A DNA stretch of 64,000 nt from Prosopocoilus inquinatus (taxonomy: Eukaryota; Arthropoda; Insecta; Coleoptera; Lucanidae). Below the pieces are notes generated by a model, which saw only the letters and a program-made list of their open reading frames with translations, did no database searches and was not told where the DNA came from. The stretch spans positions 2,666,001 to 2,730,000 of the forward strand of contig CM069869.1 of the NCBI GenBank assembly GCA_036172665.1, given 5' to 3'. Positions 9,591-55,777 of this stretch are shown piece after piece (the stretch's first letter is position 1; every line of letters starts with the position of its first letter). The position numbers were made by a program, and so were the translations under genes.

Positions 9591-9795
9591 AGGCGCCAGT
9601 TTTTTTTTTTCTAAAGTCGAAGGCAAGAAATCAAAAAAAAAATGTGATATTAAAAATCAGAACAAATAAAATCTGTAAAAAGTCGAAAACAAAAGAGAGA
9701 AATCAAAATACGGGGCGTGAAGTGAACAAAAAAAAATTACAAGGGAAGGTCGATAAAAAAAAACGATGAACTACGAACAAGCGTCGATAAAATAC

Positions 9796-10176
9796 TGTCA
9801 CGAAGGGTGCTTTTGTTAATTTAAACACTCTGTACATACATGTTAAATATTGCGGTACGGTGGGGCACACTTTGCTGAGTCGCCAATATCGGAATGAGCG
9901 CTCGATCGTGTCTTCGATCGGAGCGGGGGACTATTCGCTGGGCAAGGGCGACTCAGGAACGTGGGTCTTCCGGAGATTGGGTTGGTTGTGCCAAATAAAC
10001 GTGATACTCAGTGAGTGGGCTTTTCCTGGACCCCTTTACCCTCATACCAGCTTCAGGCGACCCCAAGAAGGCCGGTAAGTCGATCCAATTTTTAAACGGC
10101 AAAACGGTTCCTTTACCACTGAGCTACCCCCTCATTTTTATGATAGCATCGCCGCTACCCCGGAGCGAGCGTGACA
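9796..10176 (+). repeat. 5' LTR
   Basis: 381 bp, identical by eye to the copy at 16899-17279. A run of antisense sequence near the 3' end (about 10105-10137) matches the 5' half of a tRNA. No clear tRNA primer-binding site follows the LTR, which fits loss of the leader. Confidence 0.95.
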
Positions 10177-10273
10177 GCCTACGCTCCCAAAGGGAATCTG
10201 ATTTCCAATCAGAAACTGTGACCGCTTTTGCTTAAAACACACGAGGTATTTCAAGTGACCGCACCCTAACGAG

Positions 10274-13200
10274 TTGACTACGTGTCCCGACCCAATTAAT
10301 GTTAAACGTTACTTCTACTCAAATTATCGCGCAAAGAGGCGCCTCCACCACTGTCACGCTCGCTCCGGGGTCATACGTCCTTCAGACAGCGAATTCGCTT
10401 CGCCCGTCGTGTTAGTAAAAAAACCGGATGGTACATTTAGATTCTGTGTTGATTACCGGAAACTGAATGCCATCACCACGAAGTCATCGTACCCCCTACC
10501 GCTGATAGATGATATACTAAATTTTTTAGGAGGAAATAAATATTTTTCGACACTAGACTTAAACAGCGGTTATTGGCAATGTCCAGTTAAAGAAGAAGAT
10601 CGGCATAAAACGGCATTTACAACAAACGATGGGCTGTATGAGTTTAACCGCTTGAGCTTCGGACTGTGTAATGCACCAAGTACCTTCCAAAGGCTGACTG
10701 ACTCAATATTTAAGGACTTAAAATGGAAGGAAGTGGCAATCTATTTAGACGATATCATCGTGGTAAGCAATACCATGGAGGAACACTTAGAACGTTTACA
10801 AAGAGTCTTCAATTGCATAAAAGGAGCAGGTCTTACTTTAAAACCTTCAAAGTGCTATTTTGGAATGCAGGAACTTAGAGTGTTAGGATTCAAGATTTCA
10901 ACTAAAGGTATATTACCAGACGAGACAAAGATCCAAGCAGTAAGAAATTTCCCTACACCAAGAAAAATAAAAGAAGTTCAAAGTTTCTTAGGATTATGTA
11001 ATTTTTTCAGACGGTTTATTAAAAATTTTTCAATTATCGCCGGCCCGTTGTATAACATTATTGGGGCAAATTCAAAATTTGAATGGGGTCAAAACCAGAA
11101 AAAAGCTTTCGAAGCTCTAAAAGAAAAACTAACCAGTGCTCCCATCTTAGGACATTACAATCCTACGGCAGAAACCGAGCTACGAGTAGATGCGAGTGGA
11201 AACGGAATCGGAGCAGTTTTATTGCAAAAAGACGTGGTGTCACAAAAACTTCACCCTATTTCGTATATCTCAAGAACTCTTACCAAATACGAAAAAAGCT
11301 ACCCCATAACAGAATTAGAATGCCTAGCGGCAGTATGGTCGGTGGAATACTTTAGATCTTACTTGTGGGGATTGGACAGCTTTAACATAATTACAGATCA
11401 CCACGCGTTGTGTTGGCTACAGACGTTAAAAACTCCCGGAGGTCGTCTACTGCGCTGGTCGTTGAAACTGATGGAATATTCATACAAAGTTTTCCATAAA
11501 AAAGGAACATCAAACAAGGATGCGGATGCACTCTCGAGGTACCCTTGTACTCTAGGAACCACAGAAGATGAGAAGGAAGCACAAAATGTTCCAACATTCA
11601 TTGCAAGTGCAACAGATTTGGAAAAGTGGCAAAGGAAAGATTCACGTTTACAAGAAATAAAAAAGGCAGTAGAAAATCCTGAATATGGAGGACCAGCAAT
11701 CCAAAGAGCAGCAAAAAATTATGAACTGGTTAATGAGGTTTTGTATAAGAAGGACCCGTCATCCATAACTGACGCAAAACTATTAGTTATCCCGCAAAAT
11801 TTAAAAGAAGAGATTATGACAAATTTCCATCGGGATCCCATAAGCGGCCACTTAGGATTGACTAAAACTCTAGATAAGATCAGAAAAAGATATTTCTGGG
11901 AAGGAATGAAACAAGATATCACAAAATTTATTAGGGGTTGCCCAGAATGCCAAATTCGGAAGGGACCAATAAATCGGAAACCTGCAGGATTACTGAAACC
12001 CATTACAACGGAAACGCCTTTCGCCATGGTAGGAATTGATCTTTTAGGCCCATTTCCACGAAGTTCAGCTGGAGCAAAATTCATAGTTGTAGCAACGGAT
12101 TATGCTACACGTTGGGCTGAAGCTAAGGCCCTGCCAAGTGGAAAAGCTGAACCCGTAGCAAAATTTATAGTAGAGCAGCTCATTTGCAGACACGGATCAC
12201 CAAAAAGAATTTTAAGTGATCGCGGAGCAGTGTTTCTATCCAATTTAGTTACAGAAATTTTAAAATTATTAGGAAGTGATAGTTTATTTACAACTGCGTA
12301 CAAACCCTCAACGAATGGACTAACGGAGCGATTAAATAAAACAATAGCCGACATGATTAGTAAATATACGACTAATTCCCAAAAGGATTGGGATGTTTTC
12401 CTGCCACATTGCATATTTGCTTACAATACATCACGGCAAGAGGCCACTAAGCATAGTCCATTTTCGTTGGTATATGGTCGCGAACCAGTTCTTCCAACCG
12501 ATGCGGAACTTAGCCAACCAATGTCTACAGAATTTACACTCAGAAGTCAACAAGTGATACGTGAGACACGGGAAATCGCCAAAAGAAACATCGAAAGGAA
12601 ACAGGAAAACGACAAAGAAATCTATAATAAAAAGCACAGGTATGTCAACTTTAATGTGGGCGACAAAGTGAAATTAAGAAATTTTGTCAGAAAAGTAGGA
12701 AAATGTGAAAAGTTGTTACCAAAATACTTCGGCCCGTTCGTCATAATTGAAAAAAGGAATGATTTGAACTATGTAATTTCAACAGATTCCGGAAAAAATA
12801 GCAAACAGGATGTGGTACATGTTTCAAGATTAGCACCTTTTTATGAACAATGGAAAGAAGATGGTTCCCAAGATACTTTTAAGAGAGCCAAGTGTTTCTA
12901 CAAGAGCCGAAAACATGACAACTCAAAAGAAAATATGGAGAACATGGGCTTTAAACCAATTCAAGTAAATGAAATAAAAGGTTTAAAAAACACGGGAAAT
13001 ACGTGTTACCTAAATTCGGTTATAAGCTGTCTCGCGCATATAGAAGAAGTAACACACTTTTGTAGGCAATATTCACCGAGAAATAATAAAGAAAACGTAA
13101 ATTTTTTAGAAAATTTTGTACAAACAATTAATGATTTAACCAATAATTCCAAGAAGAAAGTAATATCAATATCAAGATTAAAAAATAAACTAGAAGCGGT

Positions 13201-13900
13201 AAATCCCTTATTTAAAGGGAAAGGGCAACAGGACGCCCACGAGTGTCTGTTTTATATTCTACAGATCCTCCACGAAGAAGCAAAACAAGTTGAAAATCGA
13301 AACAGTGAAAAATCATTTATATCAGACATTTTTGCGGGCGCATACGATTTAATGGCGGAATGTCTAGAATGTGGAAATCAGTCCATCACCAAAAGTCCAG
13401 GATGGGGCATTTCACTTTCCATAGATAAACATAGAGACACCCGCTTGGAGACTTGTTTGGATAATTACTTCGGAGAAGAGATTCTTTCGGAAGATAATCG
13501 GCCTATTTGTTGGTCTTGCCGTAAAAGAACCAACACTAGAAAATATACAAAAATTGTGAAATTGCCGGAGTACCTGGTGCTACATTTCAACAGTTACTAT
13601 TGGTCGGGTCAAGAGACTGAGAAATTACATAAAAGTGTAAAATTTCCATTAACTGATTTAAATGTAGGAACATTCTATAAAAATGTTGAAAGTAAAAATA
13701 CAAGGTATAATTTACAGGGGGCAATTGAACACGTAGGAAGTGCGAATGAAGGACATTACATAAGTTACATTACAGGCAAGAATTCACAAGGAATTGACAC
13801 CTGGGTGAAATGTAACGATGATGTAGTAACTAAAATAGACTCAAAAGAACTTTTAGAAAAAAATATGTACATACTTTTTTATAAGCGAGAAAACCATTAG
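10274..13900 (+). CDS. pol: Gypsy Pol (partial RT, RNase H, integrase) fused to a ubiquitin-specific protease
   Basis: One open frame of 1208 codons without an ATG start; the 5' part is deleted. RT begins at about residue 33 (GVIRPSDS); motif A Asp95 in LDLNSGYWQ; YLDD at 157-160. RNase H has Asp306 and a DADALSR end. Integrase has the HHCC finger (His519, His526, Cys556, Cys559) and the triad Asp589, Asp649, Glu685 with the usual 35-residue spacing. From 903 a USP (peptidase C19) domain follows: Cys box GLKNTGNTCYLNS with Asn906 and Cys911, QQDAHE at 985-990, CxxC zinc pairs at 1030/1033 and 1079/1082, His box GHYISYI with His1161, and CNDD at 1180-1183. All expected catalytic residues are present and there is no stop between integrase and USP. 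USPs cleave ubiquitin from proteins; the role in this element is unknown. Confidence 0.93.
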   Translation: MTTCPDPINVKRYFYSNYRAKRRLHHCHARSGVIRPSDSEFASPVVLVKKPDGTFRFCVDYRKLNAITTKSSYPLPLIDDILNFLGGNKYFSTLDLNSGYWQCPVKEEDRHKTAFTTNDGLYEFNRLSFGLCNAPSTFQRLTDSIFKDLKWKEVAIYLDDIIVVSNTMEEHLERLQRVFNCIKGAGLTLKPSKCYFGMQELRVLGFKISTKGILPDETKIQAVRNFPTPRKIKEVQSFLGLCNFFRRFIKNFSIIAGPLYNIIGANSKFEWGQNQKKAFEALKEKLTSAPILGHYNPTAETELRVDASGNGIGAVLLQKDVVSQKLHPISYISRTLTKYEKSYPITELECLAAVWSVEYFRSYLWGLDSFNIITDHHALCWLQTLKTPGGRLLRWSLKLMEYSYKVFHKKGTSNKDADALSRYPCTLGTTEDEKEAQNVPTFIASATDLEKWQRKDSRLQEIKKAVENPEYGGPAIQRAAKNYELVNEVLYKKDPSSITDAKLLVIPQNLKEEIMTNFHRDPISGHLGLTKTLDKIRKRYFWEGMKQDITKFIRGCPECQIRKGPINRKPAGLLKPITTETPFAMVGIDLLGPFPRSSAGAKFIVVATDYATRWAEAKALPSGKAEPVAKFIVEQLICRHGSPKRILSDRGAVFLSNLVTEILKLLGSDSLFTTAYKPSTNGLTERLNKTIADMISKYTTNSQKDWDVFLPHCIFAYNTSRQEATKHSPFSLVYGREPVLPTDAELSQPMSTEFTLRSQQVIRETREIAKRNIERKQENDKEIYNKKHRYVNFNVGDKVKLRNFVRKVGKCEKLLPKYFGPFVIIEKRNDLNYVISTDSGKNSKQDVVHVSRLAPFYEQWKEDGSQDTFKRAKCFYKSRKHDNSKENMENMGFKPIQVNEIKGLKNTGNTCYLNSVISCLAHIEEVTHFCRQYSPRNNKENVNFLENFVQTINDLTNNSKKKVISISRLKNKLEAVNPLFKGKGQQDAHECLFYILQILHEEAKQVENRNSEKSFISDIFAGAYDLMAECLECGNQSITKSPGWGISLSIDKHRDTRLETCLDNYFGEEILSEDNRPICWSCRKRTNTRKYTKIVKLPEYLVLHFNSYYWSGQETEKLHKSVKFPLTDLNVGTFYKNVESKNTRYNLQGAIEHVGSANEGHYISYITGKNSQGIDTWVKCNDDVVTKIDSKELLEKNMYILFYKRENH

Positions 13901-14108: not shown

Positions 14109-16031
14109 ATGTGGCCACAAAATTTAGCAGCATGTATTTTATATCTGCTAATAACGGAAAATGCGAGAGGCGAATTGGATCAAAAATACGAGATAAAATC
14201 CATGGATGGGACGTCAGGAATGGTATACGAGGATCTAGGTAAATTCTATATAACGGATTCCTTCTGGAATTTGTTAACTTTCATAGACTTAGATAAATTT
14301 GAAGAAAAATTTGTGCAGATCATTAATCTTTTTAAAGATACTGAAAAAATATGTAATGATAAAACATTAAAAGCGTCTGATTTATGCGGAAATTACTTAA
14401 ATATAATAAATGCAACAATTAATCGCGTAAAATGGGAAAAAGATATGATTCCAAATTTATTAGGGCATAATTTGGTAAAACGAGGATATTTTGACGCAAT
14501 TGGAAAAATTTCTAAGACTTTATTCGGTACTCTAACGACTGATGATGCAGAAAGATTTGAAAAGATGATAAATGAAGTTGAAGCTGACCAGGACACTTTG
14601 TCTAAAGTTATGAAAAATCAAACAATAATAGTAATGTCAACATTAGATTCACTAAATAATACATTAGGCCATATTGAGCATAATGAAAAACTGATTTCCC
14701 AGAGTTACAATTCGATAAAAAATATTTTAGGTAAAACTGCAACGGAAGTGGATTTCTTGTATAGAATAGACAGGCATTTGAAAGATCATATATCGATACT
14801 AACGACAATTATTGAGCAGTATAAATTAGAGGTAATAAATTTAATAAATATTATTGTTTCGGCAAAGCAGGGAATATTTCATCCATTATTTATCTCTCCA
14901 ACAACCCTATTAGAAAATTTGAAGTCCATAATCACATTTATACCGGCAGGGGTTAAATTCCCTACAAATATTGATAACCCAAATGCAATAGAAGCCTTAT
15001 TTAAAATTAGTAAATTAAGTATATTTTTCAAAAATTCAAAGTTATATGGAGTAGTCAGAATACCGTTAGTCCAAATTAAGCCGTTTACATTCTACAAATT
15101 AATTTCTATCCCTGTGAGATGGCATAAGAATATATTTGTAGTAATTAATCTTTCATACGCATACCTTGCAATAAATGAAATAAGATCAGAATTCGTCCTG
15201 TTGGACAAAGATGAAATGTTAACAATTATTTCTCTACAAGATCAGGTGTATATTTCACTTAAAGAAAAAACTTTAATTACTACAAACAAAAATATTTGTG
15301 AGATACAATTATTGTCATATAAAAAATCAATTCCAGATATTTGCGAGCGGCACGTGTTAACTATTAATCACATTTATTTTATGGAGTCTGTATTAGCAAA
15401 TTCGTGGATATTTGTAACCCCAAATGCAGAATCGTTAACATTAACTTGCACCGGTCAAGATGGCAACAACACAATTAAATATATAAATTTAAACGGCACC
15501 GGTAAACTTTATTTGGCAACAGGATGTAAAGCATTCTCTGAAAATGTAATACTGAAGGCAATACAAACGGAAGAATTCGAATTATTTCAACATATACCTT
15601 CTTTAAACATGAAAGATTTTAATGAGAAAGGGGATAATTTGACGTCACCATTAATCGAAGATCTAAAAATATTAGATTTAGAAAAATTAGAAAAAGTAAT
15701 GAACATTAATGAATCTCTGATAAATAAACGCCAAAAGCTAGAATCAGTTCTAAACGATATTAATAATATCCAAATAAAACATAAACACAAACTAAAAGAA
15801 AATTATGAATCGATTATATTATACTGTGTAACAATAACTATTATTATAAGTATAGGCACATATTGTTTTAAAAAAAGATTAGGAACGTGTAATCGAAAAA
15901 ACCAGAAAAGGAGAGAAAATATCCTTATGAAGGAGTATGAGGAAGGAACCTTCGTATTACCTGACGGAAGGAAGTGTACGGTAAACCTACGGGAGGCGAC
16001 TTCACGTGAGGAATTGGATCGTCTGAACTGA
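14109..16031 (+). CDS. env: Envelope protein, F-like fusion type
   Basis: 640-residue ORF starting at the first ATG, 208 bp after pol. It shows a signal peptide (about 1-21), several N-glycosylation sequons and a dibasic site ending at Arg125. A fusion-peptide-like segment follows (GYFDAIGKISKTLFG), the arrangement seen in baculovirus F proteins and errantivirus Env. A predicted heptad-rich region comes next, then a C-terminal membrane anchor (about 569-590) and a basic, then acidic, cytoplasmic tail. The cleavage site lacks an Arg at P4, so it is weaker than a full furin site. Expression would need a spliced RNA; an acceptor-like TTTTTATTTTTAG lies just upstream at about 14073-14085. The frame is undamaged. 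Assignment rests on layout and the cleavage/fusion segment and is fairly sure. Confidence 0.85.
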   Translation: MWPQNLAACILYLLITENARGELDQKYEIKSMDGTSGMVYEDLGKFYITDSFWNLLTFIDLDKFEEKFVQIINLFKDTEKICNDKTLKASDLCGNYLNIINATINRVKWEKDMIPNLLGHNLVKRGYFDAIGKISKTLFGTLTTDDAERFEKMINEVEADQDTLSKVMKNQTIIVMSTLDSLNNTLGHIEHNEKLISQSYNSIKNILGKTATEVDFLYRIDRHLKDHISILTTIIEQYKLEVINLINIIVSAKQGIFHPLFISPTTLLENLKSIITFIPAGVKFPTNIDNPNAIEALFKISKLSIFFKNSKLYGVVRIPLVQIKPFTFYKLISIPVRWHKNIFVVINLSYAYLAINEIRSEFVLLDKDEMLTIISLQDQVYISLKEKTLITTNKNICEIQLLSYKKSIPDICERHVLTINHIYFMESVLANSWIFVTPNAESLTLTCTGQDGNNTIKYINLNGTGKLYLATGCKAFSENVILKAIQTEEFELFQHIPSLNMKDFNEKGDNLTSPLIEDLKILDLEKLEKVMNINESLINKRQKLESVLNDINNIQIKHKHKLKENYESIILYCVTITIIISIGTYCFKKRLGTCNRKNQKRRENILMKEYEEGTFVLPDGRKCTVNLREATSREELDRLN

Positions 16032-16898
16032 TCAGCAGACATCCAACCCTCGACGGAAGTAGTGTCCCGAGGTTAACTACTAATAAGAAAATTACAATTT
16101 CTAATTACATTTTCCGTTAGCTTAAGAAAATTTTAGCACTTAGTAGTAAACATGTACTATATAAGTATTACTCATTTTTTTTCCTTGACCTACGCAAGGA
16201 AATGGCCAATCGTTGCGTCGGTACTAGATATTTTTGTTATTACCATTATAATTATTATATTAAAGTTCTTGTTAATTCTACGATTGTAATACATGTATGT
16301 CATTCAAGCATAATACCAAATTTAACAGAAAATATTTTTATAACTTTATATTGAATCAGAGATTAGTCAAATATTGTAATTCATTGGGCACAACCTACAA
16401 ACCTAACGTATATTGTAAATGTAAAATTCTGATGCTGCCTTTTCTTTTATGGACGCTGCCGAAGAACCAAGGATATTATCGAGTTAATCAACGGACAAAG
16501 GAAAGAAAATATGGAACCAAAAAATCCTAGTGGAGGGAAAAGTAGTTGAGGCTCCTAAACGATAAACCGAAGGTCAACACCAGAGCAAAATGAAGATGAT
16601 GCCTGAATTAAGTAGGGCATCACACAAGTACATGTACTACGAATTCAAGACCGAGTTTACCACCTTAAATCACTTCGACCTATAAGCAAACGAGGAGTCC
16701 CTCCAACATCTTGAATTTGAACATCATTCGGACCATGGAATAAATAGAAAATCAGCAGTTGATCCATTAAGAATAATGTGTAGCTTTGTTAACATATTTA
16801 AATTATAATTCAATTAGCTATTAGGAAAAGTAATATCTTCGTGACGGCTATTGGTAATGTAAATATGCATGGAAGCATATTCTCCGGCGGGGGGGAAA
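16032..16898 (+). other. Proviral 3' untranslated region with polypurine tract
   Basis: 867 bp between the env stop and the 3' LTR. The G-rich tract GGCGGGGGGGAAA (16886-16898) directly precedes the LTR and is the expected plus-strand primer. A 77-codon frame at 16297-16530 has no recognisable features. Confidence 0.75.
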
Positions 16899-17279
16899 TG
16901 TCACGAAGGGTGCTTTTGTTAATTTAAACACTCTGTACATACATGTTAAATATTGCGGTACGGTGGGGCACACTTTGCTGAGTCGCCAATATCGGAATGA
17001 GCGCTCGATCGTGTCTTCGATCGGAGCGGGGGACTATTCGCTGGGCAAGGGCGACTCAGGAACGTGGGTCTTCCGGAGATTGGGTTGGTTGTGCCAAATA
17101 AACGTGATACTCAGTGAGTGGGCTTTTCCTGGACCCCTTTACCCTCATACCAGCTTCAGGCGACCCCAAGAAGGCCGGTAAGTCGATCCAATTTTTAAAC
17201 GGCAAAACGGTTCCTTTACCACTGAGCTACCCCCTCATTTTTATGATAGCATCGCCGCTACCCCGGAGCGAGCGTGACA
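16899..17279 (+). repeat. 3' LTR
   Basis: 381 bp, no difference seen from the 5' LTR. It is followed by the target duplication ATAC at 17280-17283. Confidence 0.95.
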
Positions 17280-17283
17280 ATAC

Positions 17284-20807: not shown

Positions 20808-21007
20808 GCACAGATTTACGGGGACTACTTCATCAAATTTACTATCGGTAAGTCGCCAACAATACAATCAAAACATTAAAATGGATAAAACTCACGGAAA
20901 TGCATTAAAAATATCACATTTTATTTTATTCCCTACATGTGCATAACCTTAAATTCTAGTTTATGCATTTTATAAATCAGGTAAACAAGGCACACACTTC
21001 TTATATC

Positions 21008-24000
21008 ATGCTGAGATTGAGATTGAAGAAGAGCGTGATATTTAGGGGCAATGTCGGAATAAAATCAGCGCAGATGAAGTCACAGTACAGTACTGAAAAA
21101 AGCCTGCGCGAAAAACCACACAGAAATTATACCAAACGAATATTTTATCCGAATCCTTCAATGAAGGAGACTGTTGCAGAGAAAGTGCCCGTAGCCCCCT
21201 CGGTTGAGACGAAAATCGGCCCTAGGGTAAACAAGATGAACATTCAGATGCTATCGAAAGCGATTTACGATCAGGTATTCAAAGATGTTGCTGCCACCTC
21301 GATACCCAGCAGTTTCTTAGTGGATCAATGTCGAAAAACTTTAGAAAGCCATGGAATGATGGATGAGCCAAGCCTGACGGACGATGTAGATTTCGTCATA
21401 CCACCTCTGGAAGGTAAAAACCTGGAGGAGCATTTTTGGAACATAGCCGAGCAGCAAGCTAAACCCTACAGGATTATAATAGAGAAGTTGCTGGGGGGTA
21501 TTCCGGCGATGCCCGAGTACTGGGCGATGAGAGAAGGCTGGACGATGTATCTACCGAACTGCGAGCCTCAAGCGGTGGATTTTCCGCAGGAAGAAGGGCT
21601 AGTGTTCGATGTAGAAGTCTGCATGCAAGCGGGGAAAGCGCCTACGTTAGCAACCGCCGTAAGCAATAAAGCATGGTACGCCTGGGTCAGCCCCTCTTTA
21701 ATAAACGGAACTTCGAAGCCGGTAACGCATCAGCATTATACGCAGGATGTTTTAATTCCGCTGGAGAGTAATAAGGACGTCGCTGGATACAAACTGGATA
21801 AATATTTGAGCAAGCCGAAAGTTATTGTCGGTCATAATGTGTCTTACGATCGTGCCAGAATTAAAGAGCAGTACTGGCTTAAAAGGACGGGTTTGAGATT
21901 CGTGGATACGATGTCGCTGCATACGTGTGTTAGCGGGTTAACGAGTTATCAGCGTGCCGTGCTGAAATCTTCGAAGGAAAATCATGAAGACGACGAGTGG
22001 AAGGCCTGTACCTCGCTGAATTCGTTGGCCGAGGTGCACAAGTTGTACTGCGGTTCTACCATCGACAAGGAGACGAGGAATTTATTTGTCGAAGGGAGTT
22101 TATCCGAAATCAAAATCGAGTTTCATAATGTGATGACATACTGTGCGAGAGACGTCGTTGCAACGTACGATGTTTTAAAAGAGTTATTCCCCATGTTCTT
22201 GGAGAGATTCCCGCATCCAGTTACCTTCGCAGGGATGCTAGAGCTGAGCACGGCTTATCTTCCAGTGAATTCCAACTGGGTGCGATACATAGACAATTCC
22301 GAGCAGACCTACAACGACCTCGACATAGAGGGGCGTTTGCTGTTGGCGAGAAGAGCTGACCAGGCGTGTCAGCTGTTGCACGAAGAGAAATACAAAGAAG
22401 ATTTATGGATGTGGGATCAGGACTGGGAGGTTAAAAATTTGAAACTTAAAAGCAGCAAACCCAAGAAAAAAGCCACCACAGAAGAAGAAACTAGCGCAAC
22501 TCAAAAAGAAGAAGATAATGAAGAAACTCCGGCAGTTGCAGAAGATAAGAACGATTTTATTTATAATAGCTTGCTGAATAAAAAATTGGAAATCAAACGT
22601 TTGGAGCGTAAGTTCGATTATTTGGTTCGAACGAAAGAGCTGCTCCCCAAATTGAAACCCCTGCTCTCGGGTTATCCAAATTGGTACCGTAAGCTATGCA
22701 CTAAGCCGAGCTCGAGCCCCGACTGGATCCCGGGACCCCACTCGATAAGCACTGGGATGCAAGTGACCCCCAAATTACTAAATCTAACTTGGGAAGGTTA
22801 CCCCCTGCACTTCATACGTGGTTTAGGCTGGGGCTTGTTGGTACCGTTCTCCACCGACACAGACATCGAGAGACAACTACCGTTGCAACAGCTCTTGCAA
22901 AAGTGCCCGGTTTTAACGGATAAACCCCAGGAAGGCACAGAAGACTTATCAACCGTTGCCCGCAACGTTCAAGACCATCTGGCGCGAAAAGATTACTACA
23001 GGCGCTTGAAGAAAGACAAAACGGAAGGCTTGTATAAAGGCACCGGACTTTGGTGTGACACCATCATCGAGGACTGTTGTTACTTTCTGAAGTTACCGCA
23101 CAAAGACGGGGCTGGTCATCGTGTGGGTAATCCTCTAGCCAAGGATTTCTTAAACAAGTTTTCTGAGAATGTGTTAGCCGGTGATACTGAGAGTGCCGAG
23201 AAGGTGTTGGCTATCGCGCGGAAACTGTCGTATTGGCGGAACAATCGCGATCGAATCATGGAGCAGATGGTTGTTTGGCTGGAGCAGAGTGATTTACCAC
23301 CACGTCTTCGGCATGATGGGAACACGTACGGTGCTATTATACCCCAAGTTGTGGTCAGTGGAACGCTGACGCGACGTGCAGTCGAACCCACCTGGATGAC
23401 TGCCTCAAACGCACACCCAGAGAGGATCGGTTCGGAACTGCGAGCCATGGTGCAAGCACCCCCCGGTTATAGCATTGTTGGAGCCGATGTAGACTCGCAG
23501 GAACTCTGGATTGCTTCGGTTATAGGCGATGCACACTTCGCTAAAACCCACGGAGCTACACCCTTCGGATGGATGACTTTAAGTGGTAATAAAGTGAATG
23601 CCACTGACATGCACAGCGTGACAGCGAAGGCGGTTGGTATTTCCAGAGACCATGCGAAAGTCATTAACTACGCTAGGATTTATGGGGCAGGACAAAACTT
23701 CGCCGAGCAGTTACTAAAGCAATTTAATCCGTCCATGAGTGAATCTGAGGCACGCAAAAAAGCCACGAGGATGTTCACCTTAACCAAGGGCAAGCTAATT
23801 TATCACATCAAGCCTGAATATTTAACTGACTTTGCTGACCAGCCGTACACGAAATGGGAGGCGTTTGAGATCGCCAAGACTCACGGAAAGCAAGTACACG
23901 AGGTGTTTTTGAAGCCGAAATGGGTGGGTGGCACCGAGTCTGCCATGTTCAACCGATTAGAAGACATAGCCGGTAACAAACATCCCATCACGCCTTTCCT

Positions 24001-24493
24001 CAACGGACGTTTAAGTCGAGCTCTTGAGCCCACGAATTTCTCCAACGACAAATTCCTACCGACGAAAGTCAATTGGGTCGTGCAAAGTGGTGCCGTGGAT
24101 TTCCTGCATTTGATGCTTGTGTGCATGCAGTGGATCCTCGGTGACCGTGCCAGGTTCTGCTTAAGTTTCCACGATGAAGTGCGCTATTTGGTACCGGAAC
24201 GTTACAGGTACCAAGCCGCTTTGGCAATGCACACGACAAATTTGCTAACGAGGGCCTTCTGCTCGATCCGGCTGGGGCTAGACGATTTGCCACAGAGCGT
24301 TGCCTTCTTCTCGGCTGTAGAAGTCGACACTGTTTTGAGGAAGGAGGCTACGCAAGACTGCAAGACACCTTCTAATCCGCACGGATTGGAAAAAGGCTAT
24401 AGCATACCGAGCGGTGAAAATTTAGATATTTATAAGGCAATCGAAAAAGCAAAAGGCAGATATAAATATTGGTATAAAGAAAGGTGTGTTTAG
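21008..24493 (+). CDS. PolG1: Mitochondrial DNA polymerase gamma, catalytic subunit
   Basis: Intronless ORF of 1161 residues. The first ATG with a basic, hydroxylated N terminus (MLRLRLKKS) gives a credible mitochondrial import signal; an upstream open stretch to 20963 is probably 5' UTR, with a likely UTR intron at 20848-20980. Family A polymerase with 3'-5' exonuclease: Exo I VFDVE (Asp201, Glu203), Exo II HNVSYD (Asp281), Exo III YCARD (Asp382). Polymerase motif A DVDSQE (Asp827), motif B RDHAKVINYARIYG (880 on), motif C HDE (1055-1057). It replicates and repairs mitochondrial DNA together with the accessory subunit and Twinkle. All catalytic residues are present and the length is normal for insect homologues (tamas in Drosophila). 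The charged insert at about 490-520 is a variable spacer region. Confidence 0.97.
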   Translation: MLRLRLKKSVIFRGNVGIKSAQMKSQYSTEKSLREKPHRNYTKRIFYPNPSMKETVAEKVPVAPSVETKIGPRVNKMNIQMLSKAIYDQVFKDVAATSIPSSFLVDQCRKTLESHGMMDEPSLTDDVDFVIPPLEGKNLEEHFWNIAEQQAKPYRIIIEKLLGGIPAMPEYWAMREGWTMYLPNCEPQAVDFPQEEGLVFDVEVCMQAGKAPTLATAVSNKAWYAWVSPSLINGTSKPVTHQHYTQDVLIPLESNKDVAGYKLDKYLSKPKVIVGHNVSYDRARIKEQYWLKRTGLRFVDTMSLHTCVSGLTSYQRAVLKSSKENHEDDEWKACTSLNSLAEVHKLYCGSTIDKETRNLFVEGSLSEIKIEFHNVMTYCARDVVATYDVLKELFPMFLERFPHPVTFAGMLELSTAYLPVNSNWVRYIDNSEQTYNDLDIEGRLLLARRADQACQLLHEEKYKEDLWMWDQDWEVKNLKLKSSKPKKKATTEEETSATQKEEDNEETPAVAEDKNDFIYNSLLNKKLEIKRLERKFDYLVRTKELLPKLKPLLSGYPNWYRKLCTKPSSSPDWIPGPHSISTGMQVTPKLLNLTWEGYPLHFIRGLGWGLLVPFSTDTDIERQLPLQQLLQKCPVLTDKPQEGTEDLSTVARNVQDHLARKDYYRRLKKDKTEGLYKGTGLWCDTIIEDCCYFLKLPHKDGAGHRVGNPLAKDFLNKFSENVLAGDTESAEKVLAIARKLSYWRNNRDRIMEQMVVWLEQSDLPPRLRHDGNTYGAIIPQVVVSGTLTRRAVEPTWMTASNAHPERIGSELRAMVQAPPGYSIVGADVDSQELWIASVIGDAHFAKTHGATPFGWMTLSGNKVNATDMHSVTAKAVGISRDHAKVINYARIYGAGQNFAEQLLKQFNPSMSESEARKKATRMFTLTKGKLIYHIKPEYLTDFADQPYTKWEAFEIAKTHGKQVHEVFLKPKWVGGTESAMFNRLEDIAGNKHPITPFLNGRLSRALEPTNFSNDKFLPTKVNWVVQSGAVDFLHLMLVCMQWILGDRARFCLSFHDEVRYLVPERYRYQAALAMHTTNLLTRAFCSIRLGLDDLPQSVAFFSAVEVDTVLRKEATQDCKTPSNPHGLEKGYSIPSGENLDIYKAIEKAKGRYKYWYKERCV

Positions 24494-50241: not shown

Positions 50242-50415
50242 AGTACAAAGTTTTTTTTAATCTCAAACCGGACAGAAAAATGAAGAGAACACACTCAACG
50301 TTTCGCTATAGATTTATAGCTTCGTCACTCCTGACGAAGCTATAAATCTATAGCGAAACGTTGAGTGTGTTCTCTTCATTTTTCTGTCCGGTTTGAGATT
50401 AAAAAAACTTTGTAC
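50242..50415. repeat. Nearly perfect palindrome with hammerhead-like core, copy 2
   Basis: Arms 50242-50327 and 50332-50415 match over about 85 bp with one length difference in the T/A run; spacer CTCC. On the + strand, CTGACGA (50331-50337), a GCTATA-AATC-TATAGC stem and GAAAC (50355-50359) follow one another as in a hammerhead ribozyme core. Confidence 0.9.
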
Positions 50416-51381
50416 TGATAACAATAAGATTTATAATTAATATCTTGTTTTAAGAGAAGAATCTTTCTGTAGGTAACTTGTTTGGTGTTACGAATCAAAT
50501 TTTTTTATTTAAATTTCAATCATGCTTTGAAATTGCATATGAAAGAGAGGCGTCGTGTTATTAAACATTCGTTTCTTTTTCCTTCTGGTAAATTGATGCG
50601 GCATTGTATTCAAGAATTCTGCAGAAAATGTAACAGGAATGACAAAGAGAATCCCACACTGGCACAGAAGTTCCTTTATGAAACTTTTGATATCAATAAA
50701 TCGATGTTCATATTCGGCACACATTAAGCATTCTGCAGAATCGCTCCCGGAAGTAAGATTTCCGCAGACTGTTCTTTGAATTACAACGTTTCCATCTCAT
50801 TTGATGTTACGTGTCCTTTTATTTCAGAGCGCCGCGCCCGCCCGCTCCTTCCAGAGCAAAGAGATAAACGGAGGACGCCGCTGTATTTTATAAGTTAACG
50901 GTCCAAGTTTCGTCTTTTTGAACATTTCTGCTTAACATTCGCGCCAATAAAGTTCTGTATCGGAACGGTCTTCCAGTTTAATCCCGTGTTTGAGGGAATT
51001 ATTGCACCGAGCTGTTTTAATGCTGATTAAAAGAACGGACAAATTAAGTCGGAATTCTTCGAGGGATCGTAAATTTTATACGTACAGTACTTCTATGCAA
51101 TCGTTGGTTGGTTTTCTTCTTTTACAAGAAACTTTAAATATAATTGTATTCAATGTCTCAAATTTGAGAGGGATGTAAACCAAAAATGCTTTACTAAATT
51201 TTTATAAATGTTCATACAAAACTTAAAGCTTTATTATTTGGTCTTCTAAACACTTTCTCGATGTTAATAAAGCACTTCAATGTCCAAAATGGGTAATAAG
51301 AAGTAATAGAAGTGTCTAATAAAAAGCCGCATCTAAAACAGGGTTTTTTTTTAAAAAAGTGCAAAACTTCTGTTTTTTTGC

Positions 51382-53153: not shown

Positions 53154-53381
53154 TTAATTAGTCTGTCCGTGGTATTTTTTCACTCTATTTTTATGCACTT
53201 TCACCATTTTATTTTTTATTTTCAGAGTTATATTTGGTGACTCCACACTTATAACTTTAAACGGTCCTTGATACAAGGGTTCGAGTTTATTATTTGTTTC
53301 ACTCCTTAACAAAACCTTATCGTTAAACTTATAGCTAACATTATTGTTACATTTTTTATCTAACATACATTTTCTGTTCAT
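53154..53381 (-). pseudogene. Gypsy integrase C-terminal fragment
   Basis: 75 codons in the same frame as, but after, the stop that ends the main fragment. It carries the integrase C-terminal GPFKV-type fold (LEPLYQGPFKVISVE) and ends near the element's 3' untranslated part. Confidence 0.75.
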
Positions 53382-53387
53382 TTTAGA

Positions 53388-54914
53388 TTAAATCAGATTA
53401 TTTTTCGCGTCTTGCCAGGCAGACTGCAATCGAAATTTTAATTCAAGAGGATAACTCTCAAAATTATATATTGGATCTATATTACTCATTATATTACTCG
53501 GCAAATTACATTTTTTCCCAAAAACTAACTCATACGGTGTGTATTTTGTTTCTGTGTGTACACTGTTATTAAAAGAAAAACACCAAAACGGTACCCAAGA
53601 ACTCCAAGTATATGGGAACTTAGCTATTTGAATACGCAAATAAGCGCCAAGGTGTTTATGTGTATTTTCTAATGACCCTAGAGTTTGATGATGATAAGCA
53701 GTGCTATTCATTTGTTTAATGCCTAAAATTTTTGCTGTCTCTTTAAATATTTGTGCCAAAAATTCTGTCCCTTGGTCAGAAACAATTTCATTTGGTATCC
53801 CAAATTTTAAAATAAAATTATTAACAAATGCTTTAGCTACTGTTTCTGCTTCTTTGTCTTTAATAGGATATCCTTCTACAAATTTGGTAAGCTCACATTG
53901 AACTGTTAAAATGTATCTGTTATCATCATTATCTTGGTTTAACGGTCCTACAAGATCTAAGTAAATTTTTTGGAATGCCGAAGATGCTGTGGTGGTGATT
54001 GCTAACGGTTCTATATGAGGCCTCAAATATTTATATCGTTGGCAATCATCACATTTGGCTACAAACTTATTAACATCCTCCTTTAAATTTTCCCAAAAAT
54101 AGTGTTTTTTAATATTAGCGTACATACGGTTCATACCTGCATGTCCTCCCGTATGGAGAAGATGAAAATCGTTCAAAATTAATTGACGTGTTTGTTTACA
54201 GTCGATTTTTTTCGCATTGCTAATAACGCAGATTTTAATATTATAATCTTGGAGTAAACGAAGCTCCTTCGATAAACGGGCAATCAAGTTTTTATTTTCT
54301 TTACTTTTAAAAATACACAATTGCGGAATTCCATATTTCCTGCATATATTCTGCAAACATCTCAACTCTGCGTCTAGGGCAAGTGTTGATCGATAATGTT
54401 GCTTAATAAAAATTATTTGTTTCTTTGTATCGTATAAAATATTACGCGATTTTATCAAATCCTTACTGTAAACACCTTTTGTGTCAGTAAACTGTAACTG
54501 CCTGAGTTCTACAGAGTTCATTGGTTTTTTCAATAATTCAACTATTCCTGGATGGTCATTAGTATCCCTCTCTTTATTGTGGGGTTTAGTCTGTAATGCT
54601 GAATTTTGTTTTGTATGAGATCTAGTAACTACAAAAATATTAGTAGACATCTCTCTAAGATCTTTTAATTCTATTTGAATTCTTGATAACGCATCGGCTG
54701 CCGCGTTTTCTTTATCTTTTATATAAGTTACTGTAAAATCAAATTCTTCAAGTAAAAGCCTAAATTTAGTTAATCTAGATGATGGATTGTTCATGCCTAA
54801 TAAATATACTAAAGGTCTGTGATCAGTAAAAATTTTAAACTTCCGCCCATATAGACAAGGCCGAAAATGTTTTATTGCCCAAACAATGGCTAGGAGTTCC
54901 TTTTCAGGTAGCAT
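53388..54914 (-). pseudogene. Gypsy RNase H and integrase fragment
   Basis: 508 codons: RNase H from EKELLAIVWAI through FTDHRPLVYL and AADALSR; integrase with the HHCC finger (HTGGHAGMNRMY, then CDDCQRY) and catalytic core DLVGPL, VSDQGTEF and LENTHK. It ends at an in-frame stop; upstream continuity is lost by a small deletion. Nonfunctional. Confidence 0.88.
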
Positions 54915-55069
54915 AATTTATCTCAGCCTTATTCAATGCTCTACTGGCATAGGCAATTGGCTTTTCGTCTGAATTTGAAAGAACTGCGCCTATCGCGTAA
55001 CCTGAGGCGTCCGTTTGTAAAATAAATTCATTTTCCGCTGAAAAATTTGGATACTGCAGAATGGGTGGG

Positions 55070-55777
55070 CTAATTAAGGAATTTTTTTAGAGATTCAAAA
55101 GAATTCTGGCATTCTGTATCCCAATGAAATTGTACAGACTTGCGACTTAATTTATTTAAAGGATTTGCGATCTGCGCAAAATTCGGTATAAATTTACGAT
55201 AATAATTCGCAAAAGCTACAAATCGTTTAGTTTCATCTGCATTAGTGGGAACTGGATAATTTTGAACTACAAAAATTTTATCTGGATCGGGGGAAATGCC
55301 TTCCGACGAAATAACATGCCCTAAATATAAAATCTCCTTTTTCAGAAATTGACATTTTGTAGGATTTAATTTCAAGTTGACGTCTCGTAATCTGTTAAGA
55401 ACTTTTATTAAATTTTGATTATGGTTTTGTAAACTGTTTCCAAATACAATAAGATCGTCAAGATATACGAAGCATGATTCAAAATTTAATCCGGACATCG
55501 CGATAGTCATAACTCTTGAAAAAGAACTAGGACTAGTTTTTAGCCCCATTGGTAAACGAGTCATTTGAAATTGACCTTCATTAGTAGTAAAAGCCGTATA
55601 TTTCCTACTTGATGGTTTTAGCTCAACCTGATAATAACCCTGAGAAAGGTCTAGATGAGAAAAATAAAAAGCTCCCGACAATGAATCCAAAATTTCTGTA
55701 ATATTAGGCAAAGGGAACCGATCATCTTCGATATTTTTAATAAATATTAATAATAATGTTGCAAAAATAAAACACAT
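55070..55777 (-). pseudogene. Gypsy reverse transcriptase fragment
   Basis: RT from EDDRFPLPNI through LDLSQGYYQ, LPMGLKTSPSSF, YLDDLIVF and GHVISSEG. The first 17 codons are non-element A/T-rich DNA, marking the truncation point. A frameshift near 55075 separates it from RNase H. Confidence 0.88.

Follow-up and report, generated by a model that had tools for sequence, protein, structure and literature searches.

Can the Pol protein of a gypsy-type retroelement end in a deubiquitinase instead of at its integrase? The question is raised by a locus of the beetle Prosopocoilus inquinatus (Coleoptera; Lucanidae), located in a stretch of 64,000 nucleotides of contig CM069869.1 (assembly GCA_036172665.1, positions 2,666,001 to 2,730,000, forward strand). 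This whole stretch is referred to as the window, and all coordinates are counted from its first nucleotide. An initial annotation, made from the letters alone, had described a complete ubiquitin-specific protease (USP) fused to the C-terminus of a gypsy integrase. As to the anatomy, we are close to certain that the locus is a young, now defective, env-bearing Ty3/gypsy copy whose Pol ends in a captured, structurally complete USP and not at the integrase.

A deubiquitinase domain in frame with integrase

Reverse transcriptase (RT), RNase H, integrase and USP are encoded in this order by a single open reading frame (ORF) of 1208 codons (10274-13900, plus strand) without interruption. The USP is thus an in-frame fusion on the C-terminus of a gypsy-type integrase, and its catalytic residues are kept. 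The part ahead of the USP has the order of a gypsy-type Pol, with H2C2, DD35E and GPY/F motifs in the integrase. When pieces of the frame were scanned against Pfam, RVT_1 (PF00078) was found at E = 1.4e-35 over profile positions 1-205 of 205, followed by RT_RNaseH (PF17917; 3.1e-29), Integrase_H2C2 (PF17921; 7.5e-22), SH3_Tf2-1 (PF24626; 5.4e-8) and Integrase_p58_C (PF22938; 6.3e-8); rve (PF00665) matched the integrase at 1.6e-6, under its gathering score. The integrase residues H15/H22/C52/C55, D85/D145/E181 and G316/P317 are invariant across 15 aligned sequences, the last motif reading GPF in the window.

The only Pfam matches of the Pol tail at E <= 0.01 were UCH (PF00443; E = 1.1e-57, profile positions 2-254 of 254) and UCH_1 (3.5e-17), which bears out the assignment to peptidase C19 as a complete domain; an OTU or Ulp1 domain, as carried by Ginger1 transposons, was not among them. 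An NCBIfam scan returned no match for the USP. The residues named in the initial annotation all stand where it had placed them (ORF numbering is USP numbering plus 902): N4 (Asn906), C9 (Cys911), QQDAHE at USP 83-88, the CxxC pairs C128/C131 and C177/C180, H259 (His1161), and the CNDD box, with N279/D280 at 1181/1182. Aligned with 16 USPs from databases, to which it is about 26-32% identical, the window USP keeps every key residue (Asn4, Cys9, Gln83, Asp85, Glu88, His259, Trp275, Asn279 and Asp280). The four zinc cysteines are kept in 15 of the 17 alignment rows, the window among them. The individual residues presumably have the catalytic and zinc-binding roles familiar from other USPs. Judged by its residues, the tail is a structurally complete peptidase-C19-type domain with the full catalytic and zinc set, and a structural model gives a confident call of a USP fold. 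The best match of the tail in PDB by sequence is USP2 (6.3e-43, 150 bits), followed by USP8 (123 bits), USP15 (118 bits) and USP21 (110-111 bits).

Simpler accounts of the tail were rejected. A chance ORF is ruled out by the UCH match together with a probability of about 7e-12 for 306 stop-free codons at the local base composition. A separate host gene beside the element is likewise ruled out, as the USP lies between identical long terminal repeats (LTRs), in the integrase frame and ahead of env. Domestication as a host gene is unlikely, the LTRs being identical.

Boundaries and damage of the element

The features of the element are collected in Table 1. The two LTRs, the adjoining polypurine tract and a target-site duplication (ATAC at 9792-9795, left of the 5' LTR, and at 17280-17283, right of the 3' LTR) are those of a Ty3/gypsy element. 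The env frame lies downstream of pol, an errantivirus-type feature; against NCBIfam it returned a single sub-threshold row without meaning.

Table 1. Features of the USP-bearing element, in window coordinates
Feature	Position	Strand	Remarks
5' LTR	9796..10176	+	381 bp, TGTCACG...CGTGACA; 100% identical to 16899-17279
Rearranged 5' internal segment	10177..10371	.	Foldback; gag/protease ORF and recognisable primer site absent
RT core and RNase H	10370..11479	+	PF00078, PF17917; YLDD motif by reading; end coordinate approximate
Integrase	11786..12850	+	H2C2 zinc finger, DD35E, GPY/F; from Pfam and alignment
Linker	12851..12979	+	43 residues with a basic stretch, joining integrase end to USP; sequence read
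USP (peptidase C19) domain	12980..13897	+	306 amino acids (aa); stop codon 13898-13900
env	14109..16031	+	640 aa, Baculovirus-F type; open frame; Baculo_F PF12259, 1.1e-31
Polypurine tract	16889..16898	+	Adjoins 3' LTR; sequence read
3' LTR	16899..17279	+	381 bp; identical to 5' LTR

The 5' internal part is damaged. Positions 10351-10371 repeat 10157-10177 in inverted orientation without a mismatch over 21 bp, so that the unplaced 173-bp segment between them sits in a foldback rearrangement. The listed start of the fusion ORF, a TTG, lies inside this rearranged DNA, and the Pol region 5' of the RT core is absent, as read against the relative P0024 (see below) and others. No gag/protease ORF was found between the LTRs (ORFs of at least 80 aa; at least 30 aa in 9796-10400), no primer site was recognised by eye directly 3' of the 5' LTR, and ARAGORN found no tRNA gene. 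The damage may have arisen at insertion, after insertion or through an assembly fault. The 21-bp foldback joins the LTR end to its own inverted copy, which may reflect template switching, self-integration or, again, faulty assembly.

The initial annotation had spoken of a domain kept intact in a recent copy. The insertion is recent, since the LTRs are identical; the copy is not intact, as it has no gag or protease ORF and no primer site recognisable by eye, and its Pol is cut 5' of the RT core. Deleted copies are usually classified by pol order, integrase and LTRs, and by these the locus is a defective Ty3/gypsy copy despite the missing gag/protease.

Relatives of the integrase and the search for other copies

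A search with the integrase part matched 288 proteins, and the analysis of relatives covers the 120 of them that were listed. No UCH Pfam match occurs in any of the 120. BLASTP of the USP against them gave nothing below E = 0.1; three weak rows (0.13, 0.15 and 0.25) lay outside the C-terminal tails. In 106 of the 120, at most 40 aa follow the matched integrase end (median 3 aa), a few proteins stopping inside the integrase; the other 14 have tails of more than 40 aa, none of which matched the USP.

The integrase tree comprised 113 sequences, namely the window and 112 of the relatives, eight with incomplete integrase coverage being left out. The window integrase is sister to two Ty3/gypsy proteins of Popillia japonica, P0023 and P0024 (SH-aLRT 99), to which it is 57% and 58% identical by BLASTP and 64% and 62% in the alignment. 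Unlike the window protein, these lack a USP and stop 0 and 4 residues past the matched integrase end; both are gene models taken from a database, with irregularities inside them, and their ends are not beyond doubt. Since these sister proteins have no tail, the simplest reading of the tree, under limited sampling, is that the USP was gained on the window's own branch.

One further relative, P0053 (946 aa; integrase 44% identical), combines its integrase with a precomputed Baculo_F env match in one predicted protein, which has no UCH match. BLASTP of the window env at 1e-3 gave no match among the 120 relatives, P0053 with its precomputed PF12259 included.

Further copies of the fusion were sought in several collections. 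The USP alone found nothing in a collection of viral contigs. With the integrase alignment, no relative was confirmed among 34 pattern matches in viral contigs or 37 in prokaryote contigs. The USP alignment yielded three USP loci among 17 pattern matches in viral contigs, none with similarity to integrase, RT or env at E 0.01 in the stretch of sequence available around them. Within the window, tblastn at E 1e-3 found no second USP match.

Origin and residence of the USP

Two protein searches with the USP, limited to lengths of about 494-1573 and 311-990 aa, returned 22 and 6 proteins, two of them in both sets; each has USP Pfam domains, and none has a Pfam domain of RT or integrase. The highest identity to the window USP among these database matches is 29-32% over the whole domain and reaches 35% over a part. 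The synonymous codons of the USP fit the other element genes (mean log-likelihood -0.99 per codon) better than the four host genes of the window (-1.12). The codons of RT, integrase and env also fit the element better, and those of the host genes show the opposite.

Together, the high divergence, the full set of active-site residues and codons like those of the element suggest that the USP has long resided in the element lineage under constraint and is not a fresh capture. Set against this, the codon comparison rests on only four host genes, and an unsampled donor with similar A-rich codons may give the same picture. That known USPs match poorly may be due in part to the search, which is limited in length and requires shared exact words of five residues; it is estimated to catch relatives above about 50-55% identity and may miss more distant ones, and human USP2, the best PDB match, is missing among its hits.

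At rank 24 of the Foldseek matches to the USP model stands a fragment of a virga-like RNA virus associated with thrips (BFVD A0A7G9IR81; E = 7.8e-12, TM 0.65, 12% identity). By this modelled likeness, a USP-like domain may also occur in an RNA virus associated with insects.

Possible function and competing explanations

What could a deubiquitinase do at the end of Pol? The USP is predicted to be active. In complete members of the family it would stay on, or travel with, integrase in the particle and the pre-integration complex and would act in cis, clearing integrase and its partners of ubiquitin; the pre-integration complex could thereby evade proteasomal destruction before integration. HIV-1 integrase is described as polyubiquitinated via TRIM33 and then destroyed by the proteasome (PMC6389893, in excerpt), which makes integrase an obvious target for a deubiquitinase attached to it. 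The proposal also draws by analogy on Ginger1, in which an OTU or Ulp1 protease is C-terminal to a related integrase. Taken jointly with the anatomy, this mechanism is given a little less than an even chance. The broader idea that an env-bearing retroelement lineage takes an integrase-tethered deubiquitinase into its pre-integration complex against ubiquitin-dependent restriction of integration, independently of the Ginger1 OTU/Ulp1 fusions, is put forward tentatively.

Several observations weigh against this account. Murine leukaemia virus (MLV) integrase is reported to be long-lived and scarcely proteasome-sensitive (PMC6389893, in excerpt), so that integrase instability is not general. The window copy cannot replicate alone. 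USP residues 203-206 (13586-13597) read FNSY where USP2 has LKRF in the alignment. The fusion is known from one copy, with no second in any collection searched.

The strongest competitor, which we consider unlikely, is that the USP, delivered with particles or expressed from the provirus, acts in trans upon the ubiquitin signalling of the host; factors of immunity or of small-RNA silencing are examples of its possible targets. Viral deconjugases do target host signalling proteins and USPs generally cut all linkage types, according to the available part of PMC7464072, and many giant-virus USPs are among the structural matches. A fusion at the level of Pol, however, would give small amounts of enzyme, which would be held at integrase unless processing set it free in the cytosol, and the protease needed for its release is missing from the window copy.

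It is improbable that the USP instead aids strand transfer or gap repair where the element integrates, by working there on proteins of chromatin or of DNA repair (substrates of the histone H2A/H2B, PCNA or FANCD2 type).

Slightly less credible still is a functionless hitch-hiker, a host or viral coding sequence transduced into a few young copies. A single copy is known, and as its LTRs are identical, its frame could have stayed open since insertion without any selection; a divergence of about 70% from the aligned USPs, at which the catalytic and zinc residues are still kept, and codons like those of the element nevertheless argue against fresh passive capture.

An assembly or cloning chimera of a retroelement with an unrelated USP sequence is very improbable: the element is indeed rearranged in its 5' part, but the join keeps the frame and lies a little beyond where the related proteins stop, env and LTR come next in the regular order and the codons match those of the element.

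If the fusion is functional, a deubiquitinase attached to integrase would be a retroelement answer to integrase turnover, and the idea raised for Ginger1, that removal of ubiquitin is part of transposition, would become testable. It would also offer a natural, separable deubiquitinase for probing the effects of ubiquitin on animal integrase complexes.

Genomic neighbourhood

The surrounding genes are animal-like by Pfam: a mitochondrial DNA polymerase exonuclease/pol A, a DEAD helicase, CLPTM1, eIF-1A and LDL-receptor repeats. The mitochondrial-type DNA polymerase (20963-24493, plus strand, 1176 aa; DNApol_Exo 1.5e-97 and DNA_pol_A) is encoded by a single, apparently intronless ORF. A second, diverged gypsy-type pol (53250-55777, minus strand), split over two ORFs, has H2C2, RNase H, rve and RVT_1 domains and no USP match; it is 40% identical to the USP-bearing pol in RT and 29% in integrase. 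A near-perfect palindrome of 175 bp at 50242-50416, about 97% identical to its own reverse complement, is possibly a hairpin-type mobile element.

Comparison with known systems

The closest parallel is found in the Ginger1 DNA transposons, which, as described in the available part of PMC2836005, pair a gypsy-like integrase (H2C2, DDE, GPY/F) with a C-terminal deconjugating protease; the remark in the initial annotation that OTU and Ulp1 proteases occur in transposons agrees with this. Ginger1 differs in encoding a cut-and-paste transposase between terminal inverted repeats and in its C-terminal domain, OTU or Ulp1 and not C19/USP. Ginger1 also lacks reverse transcriptase, whereas the window element has LTRs and RT. 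A C19-class deubiquitinase on a transposition enzyme has a precedent in Trichomonas vaginalis XP_001314237.1, known here by its mention in PMC2836005 (in excerpt), where the partner is Transposase_11 (pfam01609) and not a retroelement integrase. The initial view that no standard gypsy family is known to carry a USP accords with its absence from the 120 listed relatives.

The catalytic domains of human USP2, USP21 and USP8, about 30% identical to the window USP, are cellular and have no integrase. Giant-virus USPs share the USP fold; Hyperionvirus A0A3G5A996, for instance, is of comparable length (284 aa) and matches with a Foldseek TM of 0.79 at 28% identity. These USPs belong to large DNA viruses and, as far as the database listing shows, lack an integrase. 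Capture of enzymes beyond pol is also described in LTR retrotransposons of bdelloids (PMC5408684, in excerpt), where the ORF3 genes are of the GDSL esterase/lipase and DEDDy-like kinds; 'ubiquitin' and 'OTU' do not occur in the available main text of that paper. The titles and opening parts of abstracts listed in searches of the open-licence PMC literature named no retroelement integrase-USP fusion, which is not proof of its absence in print. USP domains, env-bearing gypsy elements and fusions of integrase with a deconjugase are thus each known, and the combination of integrase and USP in a retroelement is new in the material searched.
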